From Gemmobacter lanyuensis (GTDB taxonomy: Bacteria; Pseudomonadota; Alphaproteobacteria; Rhodobacterales; Rhodobacteraceae), in the NCBI RefSeq assembly GCF_014652355.1, contig NZ_BMYQ01000001.1, positions 866,180 through 930,179 on the forward strand: a stretch of DNA of 64,000 nt, given 5' to 3'. The position numbers were made by a program, and so were the translations under genes. The notes beneath the pieces were generated by a model. The model ran no database searches. It saw only the letters and a list, made by a program, of their open reading frames with translations, and was not told the DNA's origin. Below, in pieces: positions 21,697 to 34,775 of the stretch (within the stretch, counting starts at the first letter, position 1; each line of letters starts with the position of its first letter).

Positions 21697-21711
21697 TTAG
21701 GTAATACCTAA
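21697..21711. promoter_or_regulatory. Inverted repeat TTAGGTA-TACCTAA, candidate operator
   Basis: The sequence TTAGGTAATACCTAA is a near-perfect 15-base palindrome in the AT-rich part of the region upstream of the Rieske operon. It resembles a dimeric repressor or activator site. The LysR protein at the end of the operon is an obvious candidate ligand, but that is inference. Confidence 0.5.
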
Positions 21712-21714
21712 TCA

Positions 21715-21736
21715 AAAGTAAGACATCGGTTACTTT
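21715..21736. promoter_or_regulatory. Inverted repeat AAAGTAA-N8-TTACTTT, candidate operator
   Basis: Perfect 7-base arms are separated by 8 bases, starting four bases after the previous palindrome. The spacing of about 15 between arm centres is compatible with a LysR-type or similar dimer site. Together the two elements form a compact control region upstream of the Rieske gene. Confidence 0.5.
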
Positions 21737-21790
21737 ATTCCTAATGCGACCTGCGACATTCTGACCCAAGACCCACGACAGGAGCCCCCG

Positions 21791-21922
21791 ATGACCCGGA
21801 CCCGAGACAGTTTCCATGCCGCCCGGCGGCAGGTCTGTCCCACGGCGCCGGTCCCGCGTCGGTCTGCGCCCCTGGGGCAGGCAGGATGTCAACCGAAGCC
21901 CTGCCATTTCCTCCCGCATTGA
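21791..21922 (+). CDS. Possible 43-residue leader peptide before the Rieske gene
   Basis: An ATG preceded by AGGAGCCCCCG opens a 43-codon frame ending 33 bases before the Rieske oxygenase start. The product would be basic, with three cysteines and several prolines, and has no recognised relative. The ribosome binding site is its only real support; it may be an untranslated leader instead. Confidence 0.25.
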   Translation: MTRTRDSFHAARRQVCPTAPVPRRSAPLGQAGCQPKPCHFLPH

Positions 21923-21955
21923 TCACCCTTTACCCGACCTGACAGGACCCCGGCC

Positions 21956-23089
21956 ATGAACAAGCACGATCCGCTCAGCCCTGCTGCCGCCTTGCATGCC
22001 AATGTCTCCGTTCCCTTCGAACGCGCCTATGCCATGCCGAAATCGGTCTATACCTCTGCCGAGTTTCTGGCGCAGGAACAGAAACACGTCTTTGCCCATG
22101 ACTGGCTGTGCGCGGGCCGGGCTGAAAGCCTCGCCACCCCCGGTGACTACCTGACGATGGAAATTGCGGGCGAACCCGTCGTCGTGCTGCGCGACCGCGA
22201 CGGCCAGCTGCGCGCGATGTCGAACGTCTGCCGCCACCGCATGTCCACCCTGCTGCAGGGTCGCGGCAATGTGCGCGCCATTACCTGCCCCTATCATGCC
22301 TGGACCTACAACCTCGACGGCTCGCTTCGCGGCGCCCCGGCGATGACGTTGAACGAAAGCTTCTGCAAAGAGGCGCTCGGCCTGCCCGCCATCCGCTGCG
22401 AGATATGGCAAGGCTGGATCATGGTCACGCTGAACCCCGACGCCCCGCCCCCCTCCGAGGCATTGGCCGAGGTGACGCGCCTCATCGCGCCCTTTGACAT
22501 GACCAATTATCAGGAGAAATTCCGCGAAACCTTCCGCTGGGCGACCAACTGGAAGGTGCTGGCCGAGAATTTCATGGAAAGCTACCACCTGCCCATGTGC
22601 CACGCCGGCACCATCGGCGGCGCCTCGCGCCTTGAAGAGATGGTCTGCCCCACCGGGGGGGAAACCTTCAACTACCACTGGATCCTGAAGAACGACACCG
22701 TGCCGCTGGCGCTGGCCCATCCCAGCAATACGGTTCTGGAAGGCGACGACCGCCGCAAGACCTGGCTTCTGGCGATCTACCCGTCGCTGCTGATCACACT
22801 GACGCCGGGCTATTTCTGGTATCTCTCGCTGACCCCCGATGGGCCGGGGCACGTGAATGTGCTGTTCGGGGGCGGCATGTCCGAAGACTGGCTGGCCGAT
22901 CCGGCCGCGGATGCCCATCTCGCCGCCGTGCGCGCGCTGCTTGATGACGTGAATGTGGAAGACAAGGGCTGTACCGAAAAGGTCTACCGTGGTCTTCTTT
23001 CGGACATGGCGCAGCCCGGCCCCCTGTCGCATCTGGAGCGTCCGAATTTCGAATTCGCCCAATACCTTGCCAGCCGCATCCCGGCCTGA
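21956..23089 (+). CDS. Rieske [2Fe-2S] ring-hydroxylating-type oxygenase, alpha subunit
   Basis: This 377-residue Rieske non-heme iron oxygenase has its cluster ligands at C92-x-H94 and C111-x-x-H114. The mononuclear iron site is H211 and H216 in E-S-Y-H-L-P-M-C-H. The residue that relays electrons between the two sites is glutamate (E208) where aromatic dioxygenases have aspartate; glutamate at this place is known from the carnitine oxygenase CntA, so a quaternary or N-substituted amine substrate is possible. No ferredoxin or reductase subunit is encoded beside it. It leads an operon with a flavin oxidoreductase 15 bases downstream, then RidA and, after a repeat, DUF1028 and LysR genes. The substrate is unknown. 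Confidence 0.9.
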   Translation: MNKHDPLSPAAALHANVSVPFERAYAMPKSVYTSAEFLAQEQKHVFAHDWLCAGRAESLATPGDYLTMEIAGEPVVVLRDRDGQLRAMSNVCRHRMSTLLQGRGNVRAITCPYHAWTYNLDGSLRGAPAMTLNESFCKEALGLPAIRCEIWQGWIMVTLNPDAPPPSEALAEVTRLIAPFDMTNYQEKFRETFRWATNWKVLAENFMESYHLPMCHAGTIGGASRLEEMVCPTGGETFNYHWILKNDTVPLALAHPSNTVLEGDDRRKTWLLAIYPSLLITLTPGYFWYLSLTPDGPGHVNVLFGGGMSEDWLADPAADAHLAAVRALLDDVNVEDKGCTEKVYRGLLSDMAQPGPLSHLERPNFEFAQYLASRIPA

Positions 23090-23104
23090 GACAGGAGGAA
23101 CCCG

Positions 23105-24382
23105 ATGACCATCGAAAAGATCGAGGCCGTGGTGGTGGGGGCCGGTCAGGCCGGCATCGCCATGAGCGAACACCTCAGCCGCGCGGGCGTGCCCCACCTG
23201 GTGCTGGAACGCGGCCGCATCGCGGAACGCTGGCGCAGCGCGCGCTGGGATTCGCTGGTCGCGAATGGGCCAGCCTGGCATGACCGCTTTCCCGGCCTGG
23301 AATTCGACGGCGACCCCGATGCCTTCGTCGGCAAAGAGGCCGTGGCGGATTACTTTGTCGCCTATGCCGAAAAGTTCCACGCCCCCGTCCGCTGCGGGGT
23401 CGAAGTGACGCGCGTCACCCGCAATGATCGGGGCGCAGGTTTCCACATCGCCACCAGCACGGGCGACATCGAGGCGCGCTATGTCATTGCCGCAACCGGC
23501 GCCTTCCAGAACCCGCTGATGCCGGATCTGGTGCCGCAGTCCGACGGGCTGATGCAGATCCATTCGAACAGCTACCGCAACCCCGGACAGCTGCCTCCCG
23601 GTTCGGTGCTGGTGGTCGGGGCGGGGTCGTCCGGCGCCCAGATCGCGGAAGAACTGATGGAGGCGGGCCGCACCGTCTATCTCTCGGTCGGGCCGCATGA
23701 CCGCCCGCCGCGCGCCTATCGCGGGCGCGACTTCGTTTGGTGGCTGGGCGTGCTGAACAAATGGGATGCCGACGCGCCCAAGAACGCCGAACATACCACC
23801 ATCGCCGTCAGCGGCGCCCATGGCGGCAAGACGGTCGATTTCCGCAAGCTCGCCGCCCGCGGGATGCGCCTGGTTGGCCGGACGGAACGCTACGACAACG
23901 GCACCCTGCATTTCGCCAATGACCTGGCGACCAATATCCGCCGGGGCGACGCCAATTACCTGTCGGTGCTGGATGAGGCCGACGCCTGGCTTGCCCGGAA
24001 CGGGATGGAGCTGCCGCCGGAGCCGGAGGCGCGCGTCATCGACGCCGACCCCGCCTGCATGACCGACCCGACCCTCACGCTCGATCTGGCAGCGGCGGGT
24101 GTCACCTCAATCATCTGGGCCACGGGATTTACGCAGGATTACAGCTGGCTCGCGGTCGATGCCCTGACGGATGAGGGCCGCCCGCGCCACCAGCGCGGCG
24201 TGTCCTCGGAACCGGGGGTCTATTTCCTCGGCCTGCCCTATCAGTCGCGCCGTGGATCGTCCTTCATCTGGGGCGTCTGGCATGATGCGAAATTCGTGGC
24301 CGATCACATCGCGAAACAAAGAACCTATCTGGCCTATCGCGGACCCGGCGAAGATACCGCCACCGCAACCGCCGCAGAATGA
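23105..24382 (+). CDS. FAD/NAD(P)-dependent oxidoreductase, flavin monooxygenase-like (CzcO type)
   Basis: This 425-residue cytosolic flavoprotein has two Rossmann motifs: V-V-V-G-A-G-Q-A-G-I-A near the N-terminus for FAD, and V-L-V-V-G-A-G-S-S-G-A-Q (about residue 172) for NAD(P)H. Between them lies M-Q-I-H-S-N-S-Y-R-N-P, like the family motif of flavin-containing and Baeyer-Villiger monooxygenases. A late A-T-G-F motif is also present. It has a strong ribosome binding site (AGGAGG) 15 bases after the Rieske gene and is followed 11 bases later by ridA. It may oxygenate nitrogen or a carbonyl in the same pathway, or supply electrons to the Rieske enzyme; the sequence does not decide between these. 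Confidence 0.88.
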   Translation: MTIEKIEAVVVGAGQAGIAMSEHLSRAGVPHLVLERGRIAERWRSARWDSLVANGPAWHDRFPGLEFDGDPDAFVGKEAVADYFVAYAEKFHAPVRCGVEVTRVTRNDRGAGFHIATSTGDIEARYVIAATGAFQNPLMPDLVPQSDGLMQIHSNSYRNPGQLPPGSVLVVGAGSSGAQIAEELMEAGRTVYLSVGPHDRPPRAYRGRDFVWWLGVLNKWDADAPKNAEHTTIAVSGAHGGKTVDFRKLAARGMRLVGRTERYDNGTLHFANDLATNIRRGDANYLSVLDEADAWLARNGMELPPEPEARVIDADPACMTDPTLTLDLAAAGVTSIIWATGFTQDYSWLAVDALTDEGRPRHQRGVSSEPGVYFLGLPYQSRRGSSFIWGVWHDAKFVADHIAKQRTYLAYRGPGEDTATATAAE

Positions 24383-24393
24383 AGGAGAGGCCC

Positions 24394-24810
24394 ATGGCCC
24401 ATACCCGCTACCGCAAGTTCAACACCAAGGACACCTACCCCGAACAGCGTCTCGACAATGACCTTTGCCAGGCGGTGGCAACCCGCGGGGGGACCACGCT
24501 CTGGATGCGCGGCCAATGCCCGCAGGATCTGGATACCGCCAAGAACATCGCCTCTTCCGATCCGGTGGAACAGACCCACAAGGTGATGCAGAACATCCGC
24601 CAGCTGGTCGAGGAAGCGGGCGGCAAGATGGAGCATGTTGTCAAGCTCGTGGTCTATCTGACCGATGTCCGCCACCGTGAGGCGGTCTACCGTACCATGG
24701 GCGAATACATCAAAGGCGTGCATCCGGTCTGCACCGGTCTGACCGTGGTAGCGCTGGCACGGCCCGAATGGCTGGTCGAAATAGACGCCACTGCCGTCAT
24801 TCCTGATTGA
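24394..24810 (+). CDS. RidA family protein (enamine/imine deaminase-like)
   Basis: This 138-residue YjgF/YER057c/UK114 protein would hydrolyse reactive imines or enamines and form a trimer in the cytosol. The key arginine is R123 in A-L-A-R-P-E-W-L-V-E-I-D-A, matching the position that binds the substrate carboxylate in RidA, with the E-I-D-A following. The ATG at 24394 has AAGGAGAGG in front; the frame reaches back to 24379 but without benefit. As the third gene of the Rieske operon it probably clears an imine made by oxidative removal of an amine group, an inference from family and context. Confidence 0.88.
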   Translation: MAHTRYRKFNTKDTYPEQRLDNDLCQAVATRGGTTLWMRGQCPQDLDTAKNIASSDPVEQTHKVMQNIRQLVEEAGGKMEHVVKLVVYLTDVRHREAVYRTMGEYIKGVHPVCTGLTVVALARPEWLVEIDATAVIPD

Positions 24811-24820
24811 TCCCGCAGTG

Positions 24821-24931
24821 CCGGGGGTTTCACACCCCCGGACCCCCGTGGGATATTTGGACAACGGGAAGCGGATCCGTTTTCATCTTGGTCCAAATAT
24901 CCTCGGGGGTCCGGGGGCAGACAGCCCCCGG
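24821..24931. repeat. Intergenic repeat, copies 2 and 3 head-to-head
   Basis: Two copies face each other between ridA and the DUF1028 gene. The left copy has a CCGGGGG-N7-CCCCCGG stem (24821-24841) and the tail GGGATATTTGGACAACGGGAAG. The right copy is inverted: CATCTTGGTCCAAATATCC, CTCGGGGG, then CCGGGGG-CAGACAG-CCCCCGG (24911-24931). The whole can fold as one long palindrome and would separate ridA from DUF1028 expression. Confidence 0.8.
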
Positions 24932-24953
24932 CCTTTGACGAAAGAGCTACGTC

Positions 24954-25628
24954 ATGACCTTTTCGCTTGTCGCGCGCTGCGCCCGGACCGGGCAGTTCGG
25001 TATGGTGATTTCTTCCTCATCGCCCGCGGTGGCGGCGCGGTGTTCGCATCTGCGCGCGGGTGTGGGCGGGGTGGCCAGCCAGAATGTGACCGACCCCGCG
25101 CTGGGGCCGCTGGTGTTGGATGCGCTGGCCGAGGGGCTGTCGGCGCCCGAGGCGCTGGGGCGGGTGACCAGGGGGCGCGCGCATATCGACTATCGTCAGT
25201 TGCTGGTGGTGGACGCGGCGGGGCATGTGGCGATCCATTCCGGTGGGCAGGTTTTGGGCGTCTGGGCCGAGGCGCAGGGGCGGGACTGTGCCGCGGGGGG
25301 CAATCTGCTGGCGAGCCCGGGCGTTCCGGCGGCGATGGTTGCGGCGTTCGAGGCATCGACCGGGCATCTGGGAGATCGACTGATGGCGGCCTTGCAGGCG
25401 GGTCTTGCTGCCGGGGGCGAGGCGGGGCCTGTGCATTCGGCGGGGCTGAAGGTTGTGGACCGGCTCTCCTGGCCGCTGGTCGATCTGCGGTGTGACTGGA
25501 CCGAGGACTGCCCGATTGCGGCGGTTCAGACCGCCTGGGAGGTCTACAAGCCGCAGATGGCGGCCTATGTCCAGCGGGCCGAAGATCCGACCCAAGCGCC
25601 GTCCTACGGGGTGCCGGGGGATGAGTGA
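24954..25628 (+). CDS. DUF1028 family protein (Ntn-hydrolase-like)
   Basis: This 224-residue protein begins M-T-F-S-L-V-A-R and has the DUF1028 pattern of alternating strands (G-M-V-I-S-S-S-S-P-A-V-A-A-R, G-G-V-A-S-Q-N-V-T-D). The family is thought to adopt an Ntn-hydrolase fold and is often found beside amidases, RidA proteins and peptide transporters; no activity is established. It ends with the family's D-C-P-I-A ... W-x-x-Y-x-P-Q-M. It follows ridA on the same strand but is separated by a repeat pair, and is followed by a LysR gene. An amide-hydrolysing role in the same pathway is a guess. Confidence 0.85.
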   Translation: MTFSLVARCARTGQFGMVISSSSPAVAARCSHLRAGVGGVASQNVTDPALGPLVLDALAEGLSAPEALGRVTRGRAHIDYRQLLVVDAAGHVAIHSGGQVLGVWAEAQGRDCAAGGNLLASPGVPAAMVAAFEASTGHLGDRLMAALQAGLAAGGEAGPVHSAGLKVVDRLSWPLVDLRCDWTEDCPIAAVQTAWEVYKPQMAAYVQRAEDPTQAPSYGVPGDE

Positions 25629-25701
25629 ATGCGGGGGGGCCTTGGCCTGGCGCCGGTCCTGACTTAGGTTTTTCAAAAGCCCTGTGTCGGATTGCCCTGC
25701 C

Positions 25702-26655
25702 ATGCCTCTTCGTTTCAGCCTGCGCCAACTGGAATATCTGGTCGCCGTGGGCGAGGCCGGGTCGATTGCGCAGGCGGCGGAGCGGGTCAATGTCTCTTCG
25801 CCCTCGATCTCGGCCGCGATTTCGCAACTGGAGGAGGCCTTTGGCCTGCCCCTTTTCGTGCGCCGCCACGCCCATGGGCTGTCGCTGACGCAGGGGGGGA
25901 AGCAGTTTGTCGAACAGGCCAAGCTGGTGCTGGCCGAGGCCGCGCGACTGAATGACCTGGCCAATACCATCACCGGAAAGGTGCGTGGTCCGCTGAACGT
26001 GGGCTGCCTTTTGACCTTCGCGCAGGTCGTCTTGCCGCAGTTGCGGCGCAGCTTTGTCGATGCCCATCCCGAGGTCGACTTCCATCAGTTCGAGCGGAAC
26101 CAATCGGAGATCTTTGAGGGGCTGCGGAACGCCGCGCTGGACCTTGCACTGAGCTATGAGATGAATATCCCAGCGGATCTGGAGTTCGTGCCGCTGGCGA
26201 GCCTGCCGCCCTATGCCGTCCTGCCAGAGGCGCATCCGCTGGCCCATCTGCCGGCGGTGTCGGCGGCAGAGCTGGCGGATCACCCGATGATCCTGCTCGA
26301 TCTGCCGATTTCGGTTGATTATTTCATGTCCTTCTTCACTGGCCTTGGGCTGCGGCCTCGCATTGCCGAGCGCACGCGCGACATGGCGGTGATGCAAAGC
26401 CTCGTCGGTCAGGGCTTTGGCTATTCCATCGCCAATATCCGCCCCTGGAGCGACCGCAGCCCCGATGGCGCGCGGCTGCGCTATGTGCCGCTGAGGGGGC
26501 CGGTGCGGCCGATGCGGCTGGGGTTGGTTCTGTCCGAGGGGGCGCGGGCGTCACAGACGGTGCGGGCCTTTGTGGACCATTGTCAGGCGGCAGTCGCGCC
26601 CGAGGGGACGCAAGGGGTGAAGCTGCGGATCGACAGGCCGCCGCGGGACTTCTGA
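25702..26655 (+). CDS. LysR family transcriptional regulator
   Basis: This 317-residue regulator has the N-terminal winged helix-turn-helix (L-R-Q-L-E-Y-L-V-A-V-G-E-A-G-S-I-A-Q-A-A, residues 5-24, then S-S-P-S-I-S-A-A-I-S-Q-L-E) and a periplasmic-binding-protein-like effector domain from about residue 90. The ATG at 25702 fits the family start; the frame also allows a GTG at 25684. No clear ribosome binding site is seen for either. It is the last gene of the Rieske-flavin-RidA-DUF1028 series on the same strand, so it probably controls that operon in response to its substrate, perhaps through the inverted repeats at 21697-21736. Confidence 0.92.
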   Translation: MPLRFSLRQLEYLVAVGEAGSIAQAAERVNVSSPSISAAISQLEEAFGLPLFVRRHAHGLSLTQGGKQFVEQAKLVLAEAARLNDLANTITGKVRGPLNVGCLLTFAQVVLPQLRRSFVDAHPEVDFHQFERNQSEIFEGLRNAALDLALSYEMNIPADLEFVPLASLPPYAVLPEAHPLAHLPAVSAAELADHPMILLDLPISVDYFMSFFTGLGLRPRIAERTRDMAVMQSLVGQGFGYSIANIRPWSDRSPDGARLRYVPLRGPVRPMRLGLVLSEGARASQTVRAFVDHCQAAVAPEGTQGVKLRIDRPPRDF

Positions 26656-29243: not shown

Positions 29244-30251
29244 TCAGCCCAGCGGGATAAGGTCGCGCGACGAAAGGCTCAGCTCCACATCCGTGCCGAT
29301 GGCGGGCGGCGGAACATCGGGGCGGTTGAAGGTATCCAGCGACACGCGCGCCCCCGCGGCATCTGCTGTCAGGCGAATGACGGAGCCGAGGAAATGCACC
29401 TCGCTGATGCGGGCGGGCAGCACGATGTCGGTGCCGGGCGCCCGGCCCAGATGCAGCGCCTCGGGCCGGGCCGCGAAATCGCGGCCTGCGCCCAACTGCA
29501 CCCCGGCAAGATTACCGGCCCCATCGGTCGAGAACACATTCAGTTGCCCCACGAAATGCGCGACAAAGCGGGTCGAGGGGCGGTTATAGATCTCGAACGG
29601 GGTGCCGACCTGATCGGCGATGCCGCCATTCATCACGACGATGCGGTCCGAAATCGACAGCGCCTCTTCCTGATCATGGGTCACGAAGATGGTGGTGATG
29701 CCCAGCTCGCGCTGAATGGCGCGGATTTCATTGCGCAGCGAGACACGCACCTTCGCATCCAGCGCCGAAAGCGGTTCGTCCAGCAGTAGGACCTGCGGTT
29801 TGGGCGCAAGCGCGCGGGCCAGCGCGACACGCTGCTGCTGCCCGCCCGAAAGCTGGAACGGATAGCGACCGCCCAGATCGGGAAGCCCGATCAGGGCCAG
29901 CATCTCGGCCACGCGGCGGTCGATCTCGGCCCGCGGGGCGCCCTTGATCTTCAGGCCAAAGCCCACATTTTCCGCCACCGTCAGGTTCGGGAACAGCGCA
30001 TAGGCCTGAAACACCATGCCGATATTGCGCTGGTTGGGACGCTTGCCCACCAGATCGGTGCCGCCGATGCGGATCGCGCCAGAAGAGGGGTTTTCAAACC
30101 CCGCCACCATCCGAAGCACCGTGGTCTTGCCGCAGCCCGACGGCCCCAGCAACGAGATGAATTCGCCCTTGTCCACGTCAAGGTTGAAATCCTTGACCAC
30201 ACGGTTCGCACCGAAGGACTTTTCCAGATGAGAGATTTCAAGAAAGGCCAT
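29244..30251 (-). CDS. ABC importer ATPase, PotA/FbpC type
   Basis: This 335-residue ATPase powers the importer encoded with it. Walker A is G-P-S-G-C-G-K-T-T (about residues 36-44), the signature is L-S-G-G-Q-Q-Q-R, and Walker B is V-L-L-L-D-E-P-L-S-A-L-D followed by the switch histidine in F-V-T-H-D-Q-E-E-A. A C-terminal TOBE regulatory domain follows. The start overlaps the permease stop by one base. The type fits polyamine, ferric iron or phosphonate uptake. Confidence 0.92.
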   Translation of the reverse strand: MAFLEISHLEKSFGANRVVKDFNLDVDKGEFISLLGPSGCGKTTVLRMVAGFENPSSGAIRIGGTDLVGKRPNQRNIGMVFQAYALFPNLTVAENVGFGLKIKGAPRAEIDRRVAEMLALIGLPDLGGRYPFQLSGGQQQRVALARALAPKPQVLLLDEPLSALDAKVRVSLRNEIRAIQRELGITTIFVTHDQEEALSISDRIVVMNGGIADQVGTPFEIYNRPSTRFVAHFVGQLNVFSTDGAGNLAGVQLGAGRDFAARPEALHLGRAPGTDIVLPARISEVHFLGSVIRLTADAAGARVSLDTFNRPDVPPPAIGTDVELSLSSRDLIPLG

Positions 30252-31042
30252 CAGTTCTGCGCCCTCGTATGTTTCGAAAACCGGGTGACAAGCTGGATGA
30301 GCCCCATGCAGGCCCAGGTGATCCCGAAGGAGATCACCGCGAGCGCGAAGGGTTCATAGGGTTTGTTGGCGCCAATGCGCTGAAGATAGGGGCCGAAGGC
30401 CGGACGGTCGAGCAGCGCCGCCAGCGTGAATTCCCCGATCACGATGGCAAAGGTCAGGAAAGCCCCCGACAGCACCGCCACCAGCACATTCGGCAGGATG
30501 ATGCGGCCAAGGATCGTTCCCCACCCTGCCCCAAGGCTTTGGGCGGCTTCGGTCAGTGTGGCCACATCGATGGTCCGCAAGCCGGTATCGACGGCGCGAT
30601 ACATGTAAGGCAGCGCCAGCACGGTATATCCAAAGGCGAGCAAGATATTGGTGCCCATGACCGACCCGGTCATCGGCAGCCAGCTTGAGGTATTGTAAAG
30701 CCGGATATAGCCAAAGACGATCACGATGGCCGGGATGACAAGCGGCAGCAGGGTGATGAATTCCACATAGGGCCGCGCCCAGGGCATCTTGAGCCGCACC
30801 CAGAACGCCGTCGGAACCACGATCAGCACCCCGATCACGATCGTCACCAGCGCCATCAGCACCGAATAGCCGAAGGTCGCCTGAAACTCCGGGTCGCCGA
30901 TGACCTTGGCATAGGCGTCAAGGCTATAGACCCCCCGCCGCGCCTTGAGCGAAAACTCCACCAGTCCGGTGAGCGGAATGAAGAAGTAAAGCAGGCCAAA
31001 GACCAGCGCGGCCCAGCCGAAAAGACGTGCAATCGGGTTCAT
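30251..31042 (-). CDS. ABC importer permease, PotC-like
   Basis: This 263-residue inner-membrane subunit has six hydrophobic helices and the EAA loop (E-A-A-Q-S-L-G-A-G-W-G-T-I-L-G-R-I-I-L-P, about residues 160-180). The ATG at 31042 is chosen because it overlaps the stop of the upstream permease by four bases; a GTG at 31051 is also in frame. It pairs with the next permease to form the channel. Confidence 0.9.
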   Translation of the reverse strand: MNPIARLFGWAALVFGLLYFFIPLTGLVEFSLKARRGVYSLDAYAKVIGDPEFQATFGYSVLMALVTIVIGVLIVVPTAFWVRLKMPWARPYVEFITLLPLVIPAIVIVFGYIRLYNTSSWLPMTGSVMGTNILLAFGYTVLALPYMYRAVDTGLRTIDVATLTEAAQSLGAGWGTILGRIILPNVLVAVLSGAFLTFAIVIGEFTLAALLDRPAFGPYLQRIGANKPYEPFALAVISFGITWACMGLIQLVTRFSKHTRAQN

Positions 31043-31926
31043 TTCAGCCACCGTTCCGCGCGGATACGCAGCCAGATGTAGATCAGATTGGCAATCGCGG
31101 TGACCACGATCATGCCGAAGGCCATGGCATAGCCGAGATTGGGGTTCCCCAGCACATCACCGCGGATCTGGGCATAGAGCTGGATCGGCACGATGTTTAG
31201 CGACGACCCGGTCAGCGCAATGGCGGTCGCGACAGCGCCGAAGGCATTGGCAAAGAGAAGCGCGAAAGTCCCCAGAAGCGACGGAAACAGGATCGGCAGC
31301 GCGATCATGCGCCAGTATTGCGTGCCGGTGGCGCCCAGAACCTCGGCCGCCTCGCGCCATTCACGGCGCAGCCCCTCAAGCGCGGGGGTGATGATCAGGA
31401 TCATCAGGGGGATCTGGAAGAACAGATAGGTGATCGTCAGCCCCCAGAAGGACAGGATGTTGAAGCCCAGATCCCGCTGCAGCACGATGCCAAAGTTGTT
31501 CCGCAGGAAAACCGTCACCAGACCCACTGGCCCGAAGGTGGCTAGAAAGGCAAAGGCCAACGGCACGCCCGCGAAGTTCGACGCCACGCCAGAAAAGGTC
31601 ATCAGCGGCGCCTTGATCCAGCGCGGCACGGCGCCGAAGGTCACCGCCGCGGCCATGGCAAAGCCGATCAGACACCCCAAAGCGGCCGAGGCGACGGAAA
31701 TCTTCACAGAGATCCAATAGCTTGACGGGATGGTCCCCGTATTCAGATCCCGAATGTTCTGCAGCGTGAAGGCCCCGCTGCGATCCTGAAAGGCCCCGAT
31801 CACGATATGGGCCGTGGGCAGGATCAGGAACAGCGTCACGAAAATCAGGAATGGCAGGATGCCCAGCCACGTCAGCGGCAGGCGCCGCGGCGGTCTGGTA
31901 CCGGGGGCGGGGGTCGCAGGGGTCAT
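31039..31926 (-). CDS. ABC importer permease, PotB-like
   Basis: This 295-residue inner-membrane subunit starts with a cytoplasmic basic segment and has about six to seven helices. The EAA loop is E-A-A-E-V-L-G-A-T-G-T-Q-Y-W-R near residue 200. It begins 85 bases after the binding-protein gene, with a stem-loop in between, and overlaps the second permease. Sequence type agrees with spermidine/putrescine or related importers. Confidence 0.9.
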   Translation of the reverse strand: MTPATPAPGTRPPRRLPLTWLGILPFLIFVTLFLILPTAHIVIGAFQDRSGAFTLQNIRDLNTGTIPSSYWISVKISVASAALGCLIGFAMAAAVTFGAVPRWIKAPLMTFSGVASNFAGVPLAFAFLATFGPVGLVTVFLRNNFGIVLQRDLGFNILSFWGLTITYLFFQIPLMILIITPALEGLRREWREAAEVLGATGTQYWRMIALPILFPSLLGTFALLFANAFGAVATAIALTGSSLNIVPIQLYAQIRGDVLGNPNLGYAMAFGMIVVTAIANLIYIWLRIRAERWLK

Positions 31927-31963
31927 GCGCGCGGGTCGTCCCTATCGTTATTATGATTGTTGA

Positions 31964-31992
31964 ACCCCGGCCCGCGCGTGGCAGGCCGGGGT
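31964..31992. terminator. Stem-loop between binding-protein and permease genes
   Basis: ACCCCGGCC and GGCCGGGGT form a 9-base stem with an 11-base loop, with no T-run. Such stem-loops after binding-protein genes usually keep the upstream message stable and lower permease expression, which fits the need for excess binding protein. Confidence 0.6.
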
Positions 31993-32011
31993 CGGTCAGT
32001 CTCAGGTCCGG

Positions 32012-33115
32012 TTACTGGACGTTGGCGCCCACGACCGCATCCCATCCCCCGGTGACGGCGGCCTTGTTGGCGTCGACCTCTTCCAGCGTCGGGAAATAGG
32101 CGGCCTCATAGCTTTCGGCCGGCGGCAGTTTCGACATGGCCTCGGCATCCAGCTTGCCCGCGGCCGACATCGCGTTGAAGCGGGCCGGGTGGCAATAGCC
32201 CTTCAGCCAGAGGTTCTGGCCTTCATCCGAATAGAGGTATTCCATCCACAGCTTCGCGGCGTTCGGGTGCGGCGCATAGGCGCTGATGCCCTGCACATAA
32301 ACCCCGGCCAGAACGCCCGACTTCGGCACCACGACCTCGACCGGCGGGTTGCCCGCCAGCTCATCGCGCCAGGCAAGGGCGTTATAGTCCCATGCGATGG
32401 CGATCGGGGTCGCGCCCTGGGCAATGGTGCCCGCCTTGGCGATGACCGGCACGAAGTTCCCGGCCTTGTTCATCTCGGCGAAATAGTCGAGCCCGGCCTT
32501 GCCAGCAGCCTCACCCGCGGCAGCGCCGGTCGAAAGGCCCGCGGCCAGAACCCCCAGAATCGCCTGGTTCGAGGCGCGCGGATCGCCTGCCAGCGCAACC
32601 TGACCGGCATATTCCGGCTTGAGCAGATCCGACCAGTCGGCCGGGGTATTGGCGACCAGATCCTTGTTCACGATGAAGGACATGACGCCGTAATAGTCGC
32701 CATACCAATAGCCTTCGGCATCCTTGATGCTCTCGGGGATCTCATCCCAGGTCGAAACCTTGTAGGGTTGCAGCAGCCCCTCGGCCTTCATCTGCGGACC
32801 GAAGGCCAGGCCCACGTCCACCACATCGGGGGCCTGCGGGCCCTTGTTGTCCTTGTTGGCCTTAATGGCCTCGACCTCATCGGCCGAACCGGCATCGGGG
32901 TTCAGCTCGTTCACGGCGATGTCGGGATACTTGGCCTTGAACCCGGCGATCACATCGCCGTAGCCACACCAGCTGTGCGGCAGCGCGATCACCGTCAGGT
33001 TGCCCTCGGCCTTGGCGGCCGCCTCGATCTCAGCCAGCGACTGCGCGCTGACCATGCCCGTCGAGGCGAGCAGCGCCGCAAGCGTCACGGCGACGGTGGA
33101 TTTCTTCATCGTCAT
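32012..33115 (-). CDS. ABC importer substrate-binding protein (PotD/AfuA-like)
   Basis: This periplasmic binding protein of about 367 residues has a Sec signal (M-K-K-S-T-V-A-V-T-L-A-A-L-L-A ... V-S-A). The mature part has the family-1 layout, with V-N-K-D-L-V ... W-S-D-L-L-K-P-E-Y-A-G-Q-V-A-L near residue 155 and a late Y-L-Y-S-D-E-G-Q. Three ATGs lie at 33121, 33115 and 33109; AAGGGAG abuts the first, so the second has the better spacing and I use it. The nearest enzyme, a putrescine-type aminotransferase, favours a polyamine or related amine as ligand, but iron and phosphonate cannot be excluded. Confidence 0.88.
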   Translation of the reverse strand: MTMKKSTVAVTLAALLASTGMVSAQSLAEIEAAAKAEGNLTVIALPHSWCGYGDVIAGFKAKYPDIAVNELNPDAGSADEVEAIKANKDNKGPQAPDVVDVGLAFGPQMKAEGLLQPYKVSTWDEIPESIKDAEGYWYGDYYGVMSFIVNKDLVANTPADWSDLLKPEYAGQVALAGDPRASNQAILGVLAAGLSTGAAAGEAAGKAGLDYFAEMNKAGNFVPVIAKAGTIAQGATPIAIAWDYNALAWRDELAGNPPVEVVVPKSGVLAGVYVQGISAYAPHPNAAKLWMEYLYSDEGQNLWLKGYCHPARFNAMSAAGKLDAEAMSKLPPAESYEAAYFPTLEEVDANKAAVTGGWDAVVGANVQ

Positions 33116-33314
33116 CTTCATCTCCCTTGGGCCACTTCGGCCCCGTTGGTGACTGAGGCGTCTTATTCTTGTCGTGCAACGGTTTCGTGCATCTTTCGTG
33201 ACACCAGAATGTAAGCGCGGATTTCGTGATGGCGCAACGACTCTGTCACGCTTTCGTTACGTTTTCTTCATCGAAACTTCACAGGAATGAATGGTTACAG
33301 CAGCGCGATGACAA

Positions 33315-33350
33315 AAAGAAAGCGGACGCAAATATTGCGCCCGCTTTTTT
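33315..33350 (-). terminator. Terminator after the omega-aminotransferase gene
   Basis: An 11-base stem (AGCGGACGCAA / TTGCGCCCGCT, one mismatch) with a 3-base loop is followed on the minus strand by TTCTTTTT. It separates the aminotransferase transcript from the ABC transporter genes on the same strand. Confidence 0.85.
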
Positions 33351-33377
33351 CTTCGTTTCGGTGCGGTTTGGCGCGAA

Positions 33378-34775
33378 TCACGCCTCTTGCCACAGACCCT
33401 CTTCGCGGACCTGCTTATAGGCTTCGTCCAGCGACAGCCGCGCCCGTGCGATCAGCACATCGATCTCTTCCGGCGTGATCACCAGCGGCGGCGAGATGAT
33501 CATGCGATCATAAACATGGCGCATGACCAGATTGTTGCGGAAGCAGCGTTCGCGCGTCCGCAGGCCCACCGTGCCGGGTTTGGCCGCGAATTTCGCCCGC
33601 TTTTCCTTGTTCGGGGTCAGTTGCAGCGCCCCCATCAGCCCCACCAGCTTGGTTTCGCCCACCATCGGGTGATCGGCCAGCGCGTGCCAGCGTTCGGCCA
33701 GATAGGGATGGGCCACGTCGCGCACGTGATCGATGACCCCGTCCTCTTCGATGATCCGCAGATTTTCCAGCGCGACGGCCGCCGCCACCGGATGGCCGGA
33801 ATAGGTATAGCCGTGGTTGAAATCGTCATCCGCGCTGCCCACGACATGGGCGATCTCGTCGCAGACAATCGACCCGCCGATCGGCTGATAGCCCGAGGAC
33901 AGCCCCTTGGCGATGGTCATGATATGCGGCTTGATCCCGAAGGTCTGGCTCCCAAACCAGTTGCCAGTGCGGCCAAAGCCGGTGATGACCTCGTCCACGA
34001 TCAGCAGAATGCCATATTTGTCGCAGATGCGCTGGATTTCCGGCCAATAGGTGCTGGGCGGCACGATCACGCCCCCCGCGCCCTGGATCGGCTCGCCGAT
34101 GAAGGCCGCAACCTTTTCGACACCCAGCTCAAGGATCTTCTCCTCCAGCTCGCGCGCGCGCATCAGGCCGAATTCTTCGGGGGTCATGTCCCCGCCCTCG
34201 GCCCACCAATGCGGCTGGCCGATATGCTCGATCCCGTCGATCTTGCCGCCGGCGGCATGGATATAGGTCATGCCCCCCAGGCTGCCGCCACCCATGGTCG
34301 ACCCGTGATAGCCGTTGCGGCGCGCGATGATCACGCGCTTCTCTGGCTGGCCCTTGATGTCCCAATAACGGCGCACAAGGCGGATATTGGTGTCATTGGC
34401 CTCCGACCCGGAGGACGCGAAGAACACATGGTTCAGATCGCCCGGCGCCAACTGGGCCAGCTTTGCCGCCAGCGCGATCGCCGGCACATGGGTCGTCATG
34501 AAGAAGGTGTTGTAATAGCTCAGCTCGCGGATCTGCCGCGCCGCCGCCTCGGCCAGCTCCTCGCGGCCATAGCCCACATTCACACACCAGAGCCCCGCCA
34601 TGCCATCGATGATGCGGTTGCCCTCGCTGTCCGTCAGCCAGACGCCCTTGGCCGCGGTGATGACGCGCGCGCCCCGCTTGGCCAGCGCCGCATCCGAGGT
34701 GAAGGGATGCATGTGATGGGCGGCGTCCAGCGCCTGCAGCTCTGCCGTGGGCAGGTGATTGGTGATCTTGTTCAT
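33378..34775 (-). CDS. Class III omega-aminotransferase, polyamine:pyruvate (SpuC) type
   Basis: This 465-residue PLP aminotransferase closely follows the N-terminal pattern of SpuC-like putrescine or omega-amino acid:pyruvate transaminases (H-H-M-H-P-F-T, M-A-G-L-W-C-V-N-V-G-Y-G-R-E-E-L). The class III signature is L-I-V-D-E-V-I-T-G-F-G-R-T-G, and the PLP lysine is in T-I-A-K-G-L-S-S-G-Y-Q-P-I-G-G. It would transfer the terminal amine of putrescine, cadaverine, beta-alanine or a similar compound to pyruvate. The gene follows a GntR regulator on the same strand, and a perfect palindrome (34872-34885) lies about 100 bases upstream of its ATG. The transporter genes follow. Exact substrate is not decidable here. 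Confidence 0.88.
   Translation of the reverse strand: MNKITNHLPTAELQALDAAHHMHPFTSDAALAKRGARVITAAKGVWLTDSEGNRIIDGMAGLWCVNVGYGREELAEAAARQIRELSYYNTFFMTTHVPAIALAAKLAQLAPGDLNHVFFASSGSEANDTNIRLVRRYWDIKGQPEKRVIIARRNGYHGSTMGGGSLGGMTYIHAAGGKIDGIEHIGQPHWWAEGGDMTPEEFGLMRARELEEKILELGVEKVAAFIGEPIQGAGGVIVPPSTYWPEIQRICDKYGILLIVDEVITGFGRTGNWFGSQTFGIKPHIMTIAKGLSSGYQPIGGSIVCDEIAHVVGSADDDFNHGYTYSGHPVAAAVALENLRIIEEDGVIDHVRDVAHPYLAERWHALADHPMVGETKLVGLMGALQLTPNKEKRAKFAAKPGTVGLRTRERCFRNNLVMRHVYDRMIISPPLVITPEEIDVLIARARLSLDEAYKQVREEGLWQEA

Follow-up and report, generated by a model that had tools for sequence, protein, structure and literature searches.

What does a five-gene operon that opens with a Rieske oxygenase and ends with a LysR-type regulator do for Gemmobacter lanyuensis? 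The operon lies in a 64-kb window (64,000 nucleotides, positions 866,180 to 930,179 of contig NZ_BMYQ01000001.1, assembly GCF_014652355.1; all coordinates below are those of the window), where the open reading frame list and Pfam assignments place all five genes on the plus strand. A first-pass annotation, made from the DNA alone, had described these five closely spaced genes, gaps of 11–15 bases among the first three, two inverted repeats upstream and no reductase for the Rieske protein, and all of this is borne out: the gaps are 15 bases (Rieske to flavin gene) and 11 bases (flavin gene to RidA, with the RidA start at 24394), the repeats are present at 21697–21711 and 21715–21736 (the latter AAAGTAA/TTACTTT), and no reductase gene occurs in the operon. 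It had also called the operon uncharacterised, with no substrate known, but we find that three of the five genes match hinF, hinL and hinH of imidazole-4-acetate (ImAA) degradation. We see an even chance that the operon is the ImAA half of the histamine pathway with the Rieske oxygenase as a further entry enzyme. The hin core itself is ordinary; the new part is the link of the Rieske gene to it, for which co-occurrence is good evidence and a shared operator partial evidence.

The core can be recognized by its company in other genomes. Of at least 573 candidate flavin-gene loci we kept the best 80: 67 of these have RidA, 66 DUF1028, 57 a LysR gene, 46 an M20/ArgE-type gene, and 4 a Rieske gene. 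From these tallies we take the core to be flavin enzyme–RidA–DUF1028, with M20 and LysR, and the Rieske gene to be an addition. The three core genes are consecutive on one strand with gaps below 400 bases in 51 of these loci, in the same order as in the window, and the core occurs in Alphaproteobacteria, Pseudomonas, Acetobacter, and Actinobacteria. On an annotated Arthrobacter plasmid it sits amid genes for a primary-amine oxidase, an aldehyde dehydrogenase, an M20 peptidase, and an aspartate ammonia-lyase, and since these surroundings match the gene list of histamine catabolism, we identified the core with that pathway. Homarine, pyridine, vitamin B6, thiamine, and polyamine pathways were also considered, and were dropped on the strength of this plasmid context and the match to the hin gene order; a search of open-licence papers for a Rieske oxygenase with homarine gave nothing relevant.

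In the accessible part of PMC6467879, HinF is described as a flavin adenine dinucleotide (FAD) monooxygenase (EC 1.14.13.5) and HinL as an enamine deaminase; the amidases are HinG and HinH, and the aspartase is HinI. The accessible part of PMC8231116 gives the PAO1 genes as PA5393 (hinF), PA5392 (hinL), PA5391 (hinH), and PA5390 (hinG), all strongly histamine-induced, and presents HinK as a LysR protein responding to ImAA; the underlying work, as relayed in the available text of these two sources, was done in P. putida U (de la Torre 2018) and PAO1 (Wang 2021). Five of the six Pseudomonas loci that we fetched have the PAO1 order of flavin enzyme, RidA, DUF1028, and M20, the sixth (L083) being rearranged, and the loci with the published order score 785–801 bits against our flavin profile, though they carry no Hin gene names. 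Gene order, protein class, and context thus make it very probable that the window's flavin enzyme, RidA, and DUF1028 proteins are HinF, HinL, and HinH, an ImAA-degrading module. The operon shares with Pseudomonas hinFLHG the classes and order of F, L, and H and, presumably, regulation by a LysR protein, and in both cases relatives elsewhere are co-located with histamine dehydrogenase or amine oxidase, aldehyde dehydrogenase, and aspartase; it differs in opening with a Rieske gene, in lacking hinG, and in having its LysR gene last.

The proteins themselves are consistent with this assignment. The hinF-like gene (23105–24382, plus strand; Pyr_redox_3, FMO-like) encodes a putative FAD/NAD(P)H-dependent imidazole-4-acetate monooxygenase; both GxGxxG motifs and the HSxxY motif are present in 111 of 113 relatives. 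The nearest NCBIfam model is the MSMEG_0569 flavoprotein family (TIGR04046), yet membership was rejected, as the score of 363.2 bits lies below the curated cutoff of 498.35. Archetypal RidA, a 2-aminoacrylate/iminobutanoate deaminase, has an arginine with a functional role in its PxR motif. The hinL-like RidA-family protein (24394–24810, plus strand; PF01042) has a cysteine where it aligns with this arginine of solved RidA proteins, and serine, cysteine, or phenylalanine stands there in the 80 motif matches listed for 109 relatives (27 unmatched by the pattern). In the hinH-like DUF1028 protein (24954–25628, plus strand; PF06267, 217 bits), an N-terminal Met-Thr is invariant in a five-sequence alignment, suggesting an N-terminal-nucleophile (Ntn-type) amide hydrolase with Thr2 as the proposed nucleophile; TFS follows the methionine in 83 of 111 relatives (28 unmatched by the pattern). 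Its sole solved relative is 2imh, a hypothetical protein, and no paper naming DUF1028 was found among the open-licence papers searched. The last gene (25702–26655, plus strand; HTH_1 and LysR_substrate) encodes a HinK-like LysR-type regulator that is 55–59% identical to the LysR proteins of three other Rieske/hin loci.

Following the published pathway, HinF would oxygenate the ImAA ring, which would open towards formimino- or formyl-aspartate; deamination and deformylation by HinL, HinH, and HinG would then lead to aspartate. Accumulating ImAA would turn the operon on through the LysR protein. This scheme departs from the first-pass annotation, in which the Rieske enzyme oxidises an N-substituted compound and RidA hydrolyses the resulting imine: the module implies ring oxidation by HinF followed by HinL, HinH, and HinG, also in organisms that have no Rieske gene. 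Of that earlier reading, the catabolic unit for a nitrogen compound, its LysR regulator, and the expected conserved co-occurrence hold, to judge from the sequences, whereas the verdict on the substrate and the Rieske-then-RidA scheme do not.

Is the Rieske gene (21956–23089, plus strand; Pfam Rieske and Ring_hydroxyl_A) truly part of this pathway? We searched 292 genomes of the order Rhodobacterales with a profile of six orthologues and retained 61 genes in 60 genomes, down from 61 genomes, leaving out G251 (419 bits) and a second copy in G130 (426 bits). HinF is present in 76 of the 292 genomes. Both genes occur together in 53, the Rieske gene alone in 7, HinF alone in 23, and neither in 209, so that HinF accompanies 53 of the 60 Rieske genomes vs 23 of the 232 without Rieske (odds ratio 69, Fisher p 5e-32); because the genomes are related, this and the other p values overstate independence and are only indicative. 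Pairs within 5 kb number 24, and in 29 of the 53 genomes the two genes are unlinked. Around the 61 Rieske genes, HinF and HinH both lie within 5 kb in 23 cases, HinH only in 12, and HinF only in 1, and in seven genomes the only HinH copy is beside the Rieske gene and the only HinF elsewhere, which we read as one split pathway. The position of the Rieske gene varies among loci, being before, after, divergent from, or between hinF and hinL. Burkholderiaceae plasmids show the pairing too: in the five records that two plasmid searches had in common, roughly 1.3 kb separate the Rieske gene from the flavin gene. We consider it likely that the Rieske enzyme acts in the same pathway as the hin module.

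A further tie is found upstream of the operon. A T-N11-A palindrome is typical of LysR regulators, and the first repeat, TTAGGTAATACCTAA (21697–21711), is a perfect 7-1-7 palindrome of this kind, TTAGGTA-A-TACCTAA, with an exact TTAGG-N5-CCTAA core; we propose it as the binding site of the HinK-like protein. This 14-base palindrome is single-copy in the window even at two mismatches. A second, weaker operator-like site, TTACTTTATTCCTAA (21730–21744), lies 33 bases downstream with two mismatches and, as one of eight sites in the window with two mismatches or better, is weak alone. We scanned for the core, at up to two mismatches, within 250 bases upstream of the genes and found it before 59 of 114 hinF, 29 of 69 Rieske, and 23 of 83 hinG regions, but before 8 of 110 RidA, 1 of 112 DUF1028, and 6 of 96 LysR regions; its density is 2.4 per kb for hinF and 1.8 for Rieske genes, against a background of 0.125. 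When 150 control palindromes were run on 300-base regions, none did as well as the core at hinF, at Rieske genes that share a locus with hinF (17/32), or at Rieske genes whose locus has RidA or DUF1028 and lacks hinF (6/12); four reached the hinG value. The Rieske gene thus often shares a predicted operator with hinF.

Histamine dehydrogenase would supply the upstream half of the pathway. A flavoprotein of about 690 residues that adjoins the rhodobacterial hin module has histamine dehydrogenase as its best PDB match (1259 bits to 6de6), and members of this clade, at 990 bits or more, occur in 40 of the 292 genomes, every one of which has HinF (40/40). The count was reduced from 66 by leaving out 26 genomes with only relatives below 990 bits, and the kept set includes G191, where the match is cut by a contig end. 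The enzyme (6de6, 3k30) therefore tracks HinF across genomes, though it is outside the window operon: in G. lanyuensis it is encoded, at 66% identity, on another contig, with an ATP-binding cassette (ABC) transporter, an aldehyde dehydrogenase-like gene, and a nitrilase-like gene recognized by eye as neighbours. Since the genome carries this dehydrogenase, the complete path leading from histamine to ImAA is probably present in this bacterium, and the window holds the ImAA part.

What, then, does the Rieske enzyme add? In PDB, NCBIfam, and profile searches its nearest characterised relatives are the carnitine monooxygenase CntA, which is the best PDB match, the stachydrine demethylase Stc2, and GbcA, which is the best NCBIfam match. 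We rejected a glycine betaine monooxygenase assignment (GbcA, NF058607), as the protein scores 156.5 bits against a curated cutoff of 670. The accessible text of PMC7948474 places CntA, Stc2, GbcA-type enzymes, and also choline monooxygenases in group V of the Rieske oxygenases, which act at N-alkyl or N-methyl groups and not on rings. By alignment the window protein has its iron ligands at C92, H94, C111, H114, H211, H216, and D336, and the CxH/CxxH and 2-His-1-Asp sets are complete in 68 of 68 relatives. E208 aligns with the bridging glutamate E205 of CntA, within an ENFMESYH stretch shared by all 68, and F206 aligns with CntA Y203, an aromatic position in clade Va that is asparagine in clade Vb, a weak match given that aromatic residues nearby may occur in other Rieske groups. 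As in group V enzymes generally (CntA, GbcA, Stc2, choline monooxygenase, OxyBAC), there is a single alpha-type subunit, with no beta-subunit gene beside it, together with the bridging glutamate and the clade Va aromatic residue; unlike them, the protein is linked to ImAA genes and not to carnitine or betaine genes and has no CntB-type reductase in its operon, and the alignment covers only about the first 220 residues. An AlphaFold2 model from a four-sequence alignment had a mean predicted local distance difference test (pLDDT) score of 37.9 and was not used. In three loci (L005, L194, L199) a BphA4-type reductase gene (Pfam Reductase_C) sits beside the LysR–Rieske pair, and the G. lanyuensis genome encodes, on contigs C6 and C11, reductases that are 72% and 62% identical to the BphA4-type protein, so electrons probably reach the Rieske enzyme from a ferredoxin and a BphA4-type reductase encoded elsewhere in the genome.

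These relatives, together with sister Rieske genes of 42% identity that adjoin sarcosine oxidase or choline dehydrogenase genes, suggest oxidation of an N-methyl or N-alkyl group. The genomic context points to ImAA or a precursor of it as the product: besides the hin genes, 28 of the 76 HinF genomes have the Rieske gene without histamine dehydrogenase (25 have both, 15 the dehydrogenase only, and 8 neither), and HinF has an aldehyde dehydrogenase at a distance of 6 kb or less in 2 of 26 Rieske loci vs 29 of 69 others (p 0.0012). A strict either-or replacement of histamine dehydrogenase by the Rieske enzyme was rejected, as 25 genomes have both and the association given HinF is not significant (p 0.21). 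N-demethylation of a methylated imidazoleacetate fits because such a route reaches ImAA without an aldehyde. Methylimidazoleacetates are histamine metabolites of animals. Our favoured proposal, to which we assign slightly less than an even chance, is that the Rieske enzyme is an entry N-demethylase that would oxidise the N-methyl group of tele- or pros-methylimidazoleacetate, releasing formaldehyde and ImAA. No description of a Rieske oxygenase in the histamine or ImAA pathway was found among the open-licence matches listed, which is not proof of absence.

A second Rieske family bears on this proposal. It is present at 15 of 70 loci (a first Rieske being called in 68), always on the same strand as the first and in 11 of the 15 within 151 bases or overlapping; its members, at L213, L214, L215, L217, L218, L227, and nine more loci, some with no gap, are 54–93% identical among themselves and about 33% identical to the first family, and their best solved relative is also CntA. 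The G. lanyuensis genome has no member of this family, its best match being the first Rieske at 33%. In caffeine degradation, NdmA and NdmB are two Rieske enzymes that act on heteroaromatic N-methyl substrates and share a reductase. Two enzymes for two ring nitrogens would parallel that pair, though the likeness is functional only, the match being weak (NdmA, 34.6 bits in the profile search) and the Rieske lineage different. Zooanemonin is a marine betaine, a point not found in the literature searched, and in genomes with two Rieske genes this dimethylimidazolium betaine is a possible substrate. It is conceivable, if rather doubtful, that the two families form an N-demethylation branch, each removing one N-methyl group, by which zooanemonin-type betaines are degraded into the ImAA-sensing hin regulon; norzooanemonin is named as a marine betaine in the accessible part of PMC11342128.

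Other roles for the Rieske enzyme would explain parts of the same evidence. It could be an alternative first step on histamine or a histamine amine, oxidising the carbon beside the side-chain nitrogen to give imidazole acetaldehyde and then ImAA. The 28 genomes with Rieske and HinF but no histamine dehydrogenase would suit such a role, as would the placing of CntA among the nearest relatives and of choline monooxygenases in the same group, and class III aminotransferase-like genes stand directly before the Rieske gene in L174 and L178. We nonetheless consider it unlikely: an aldehyde dehydrogenase would be needed and is rare beside HinF in Rieske loci, 25 genomes carry both the Rieske gene and histamine dehydrogenase, and the accessible text of PMC7948474 describes CntA as active on quaternary ammonium compounds only. 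The enzyme could also cleave the C–N bond of an N-trimethylated histidine derivative such as hercynine or histamine betaine, an idea in keeping with the enzyme group of carnitine monooxygenase and with F206 at the position of CntA Y203. Even so, the product would need more carbon-chain oxidation before HinF, with aldehyde dehydrogenase again scarce at these loci, and no trimethylamine-use gene was identified in the operon, leaving this explanation improbable.

The Rieske enzyme might instead be a ring oxygenase in its own right, standing in for HinF or complementing it on another imidazole, with its product passing to the same RidA, DUF1028, and M20 proteins. This could explain the 12 of 61 Rieske genes that have HinH but not HinF at 5 kb or less, as well as G014, which has Rieske and HinH but no HinF and a flavin-reductase-like neighbour; in addition, one hin locus contains an HpaB-type hydroxylase. 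HinF is kept in 53 of 60 Rieske genomes, however, the seven genomes with HinH beside Rieske and HinF elsewhere read as one pathway and not two, and group V relatives attack N-alkyl or N-methyl groups; a ring oxygenase is thus a distinctly unlikely reading. Most improbable in our judgement is that the gene is a passenger from an unrelated betaine or sarcosine pathway, found with hin genes through shared transfer or ancestry. The genomes are indeed related, the 42%-identical sisters adjoin sarcosine oxidase and choline dehydrogenase genes, and many copies lie apart from hin genes, but co-occurrence holds for the unlinked copies, the link persists despite varied arrangement and on Burkholderiaceae plasmids as well, and the operator is common to Rieske and hinF.

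Several observations weigh against entry N-demethylation feeding a hin pathway. The hin assignment rests on gene order, class, and co-location with histamine dehydrogenase, not on comparison with the Pseudomonas Hin proteins themselves. The operon has no M20 (hinG) gene, and the M20 candidates elsewhere in the genome are 44, 38, and 37% identical, the best being 44% to a plasmid hinG; hinG is also unlinked in part of the loci retrieved, given that 46 of the 80 carry it within the locus. In G. lanyuensis, good operator matches are missing from both the histamine dehydrogenase region and the best hinG candidate, an argument against a single simple regulon in this genome, and Rieske loci without hinF, RidA, and DUF1028 are not clearly enriched for the operator (6/25, a value reached by 10 of 150 controls). 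For 25 of the 61 Rieske genes there is no HinF or HinH gene at a distance of 5 kb or less; among 60 Rieske loci retrieved, 40 have at least one hin gene and 20 none; and HinF is absent from 7 of the 60 Rieske genomes. Histamine dehydrogenase is near HinF in 6 of 26 Rieske loci vs 25 of 69 non-Rieske loci, not a significant difference (p 0.33). A CxxC pair beside the iron site is described for some group V members in the accessible part of PMC10952381, and the window protein has S209 and L212 at those positions. At class level, among 385 genomes, the Rieske gene was found in two besides that of G. lanyuensis, one of them with HinF, and HinF in 14 others; the Rieske–HinF link is rare outside Rhodobacterales and some Burkholderiaceae plasmids.

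Should N-demethylation nevertheless prove correct, methylated imidazoles would have a microbial fate in the hin pathway, and the Rieske gene would serve as its marker. Both histamine and the methylated compounds formed from it are animal signals and waste, and imidazolium betaines occur in marine invertebrates. The same reading would account for the presence of DUF1028 and a non-archetypal RidA alongside flavin oxygenases in many bacteria, the DUF1028–RidA pair here indicating imidazoleacetate rather than an unknown N-substituted compound. A two-Rieske branch, if real, would do for imidazoles what N-demethylation does for caffeine, and would offer the main methylated metabolites of histamine a route of bacterial breakdown.

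Hin loci elsewhere show further variation. In Parasedimentitalea (L102:10509–12038), a gene of the HpaB type (4-hydroxyphenylacetate 3-hydroxylase family) lies between hinF and hinL, and pairs of HpaB and flavin-reductase genes may replace HinF at, e.g., L184 and L201, where the genes carry no family assignment. In Leisingera thetidis (L098:1–4058), hutI, hutH, hutG, and hutU adjoin the hin genes, with an LLM-type flavin monooxygenase, a flavin reductase, and a DUF1185-type gene between the two sets. Shinella sp. WSC3-e (L099:9001–10236) has a hinF-like gene without RidA or DUF1028, beside an ABC transporter, a D-amino acid dehydrogenase, and an alanine racemase.

Within the window operon, two gene starts differ from the open reading frame list: RidA more likely begins at 24394 than at the listed 24379, because relatives begin MAHTR, and the LysR gene at ATG 25702 rather than GTG 25684, because relatives begin MPLR. 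The RidA–DUF1028 gap is 143 bases and the DUF1028–LysR gap 55–73 bases. The former contains a long inverted repeat (24820–24932), absent from the first-pass annotation, with 32-base arms that are 78% complementary; its core, GGACCCCCGNGGGATATTTGG, recurs at four sites in the genome at one mismatch or fewer (control, 0), so that it is likely a dispersed repeat and not an operon-specific hairpin. Farther along the window, at 29244–34775 on the minus strand, are ABC transporter genes with an SBP_bac_6 solute-binding protein, and behind them a class III aminotransferase gene and one resembling a regulator; we left all of these out of the operon because they lie on the opposite strand beyond three unrelated genes.

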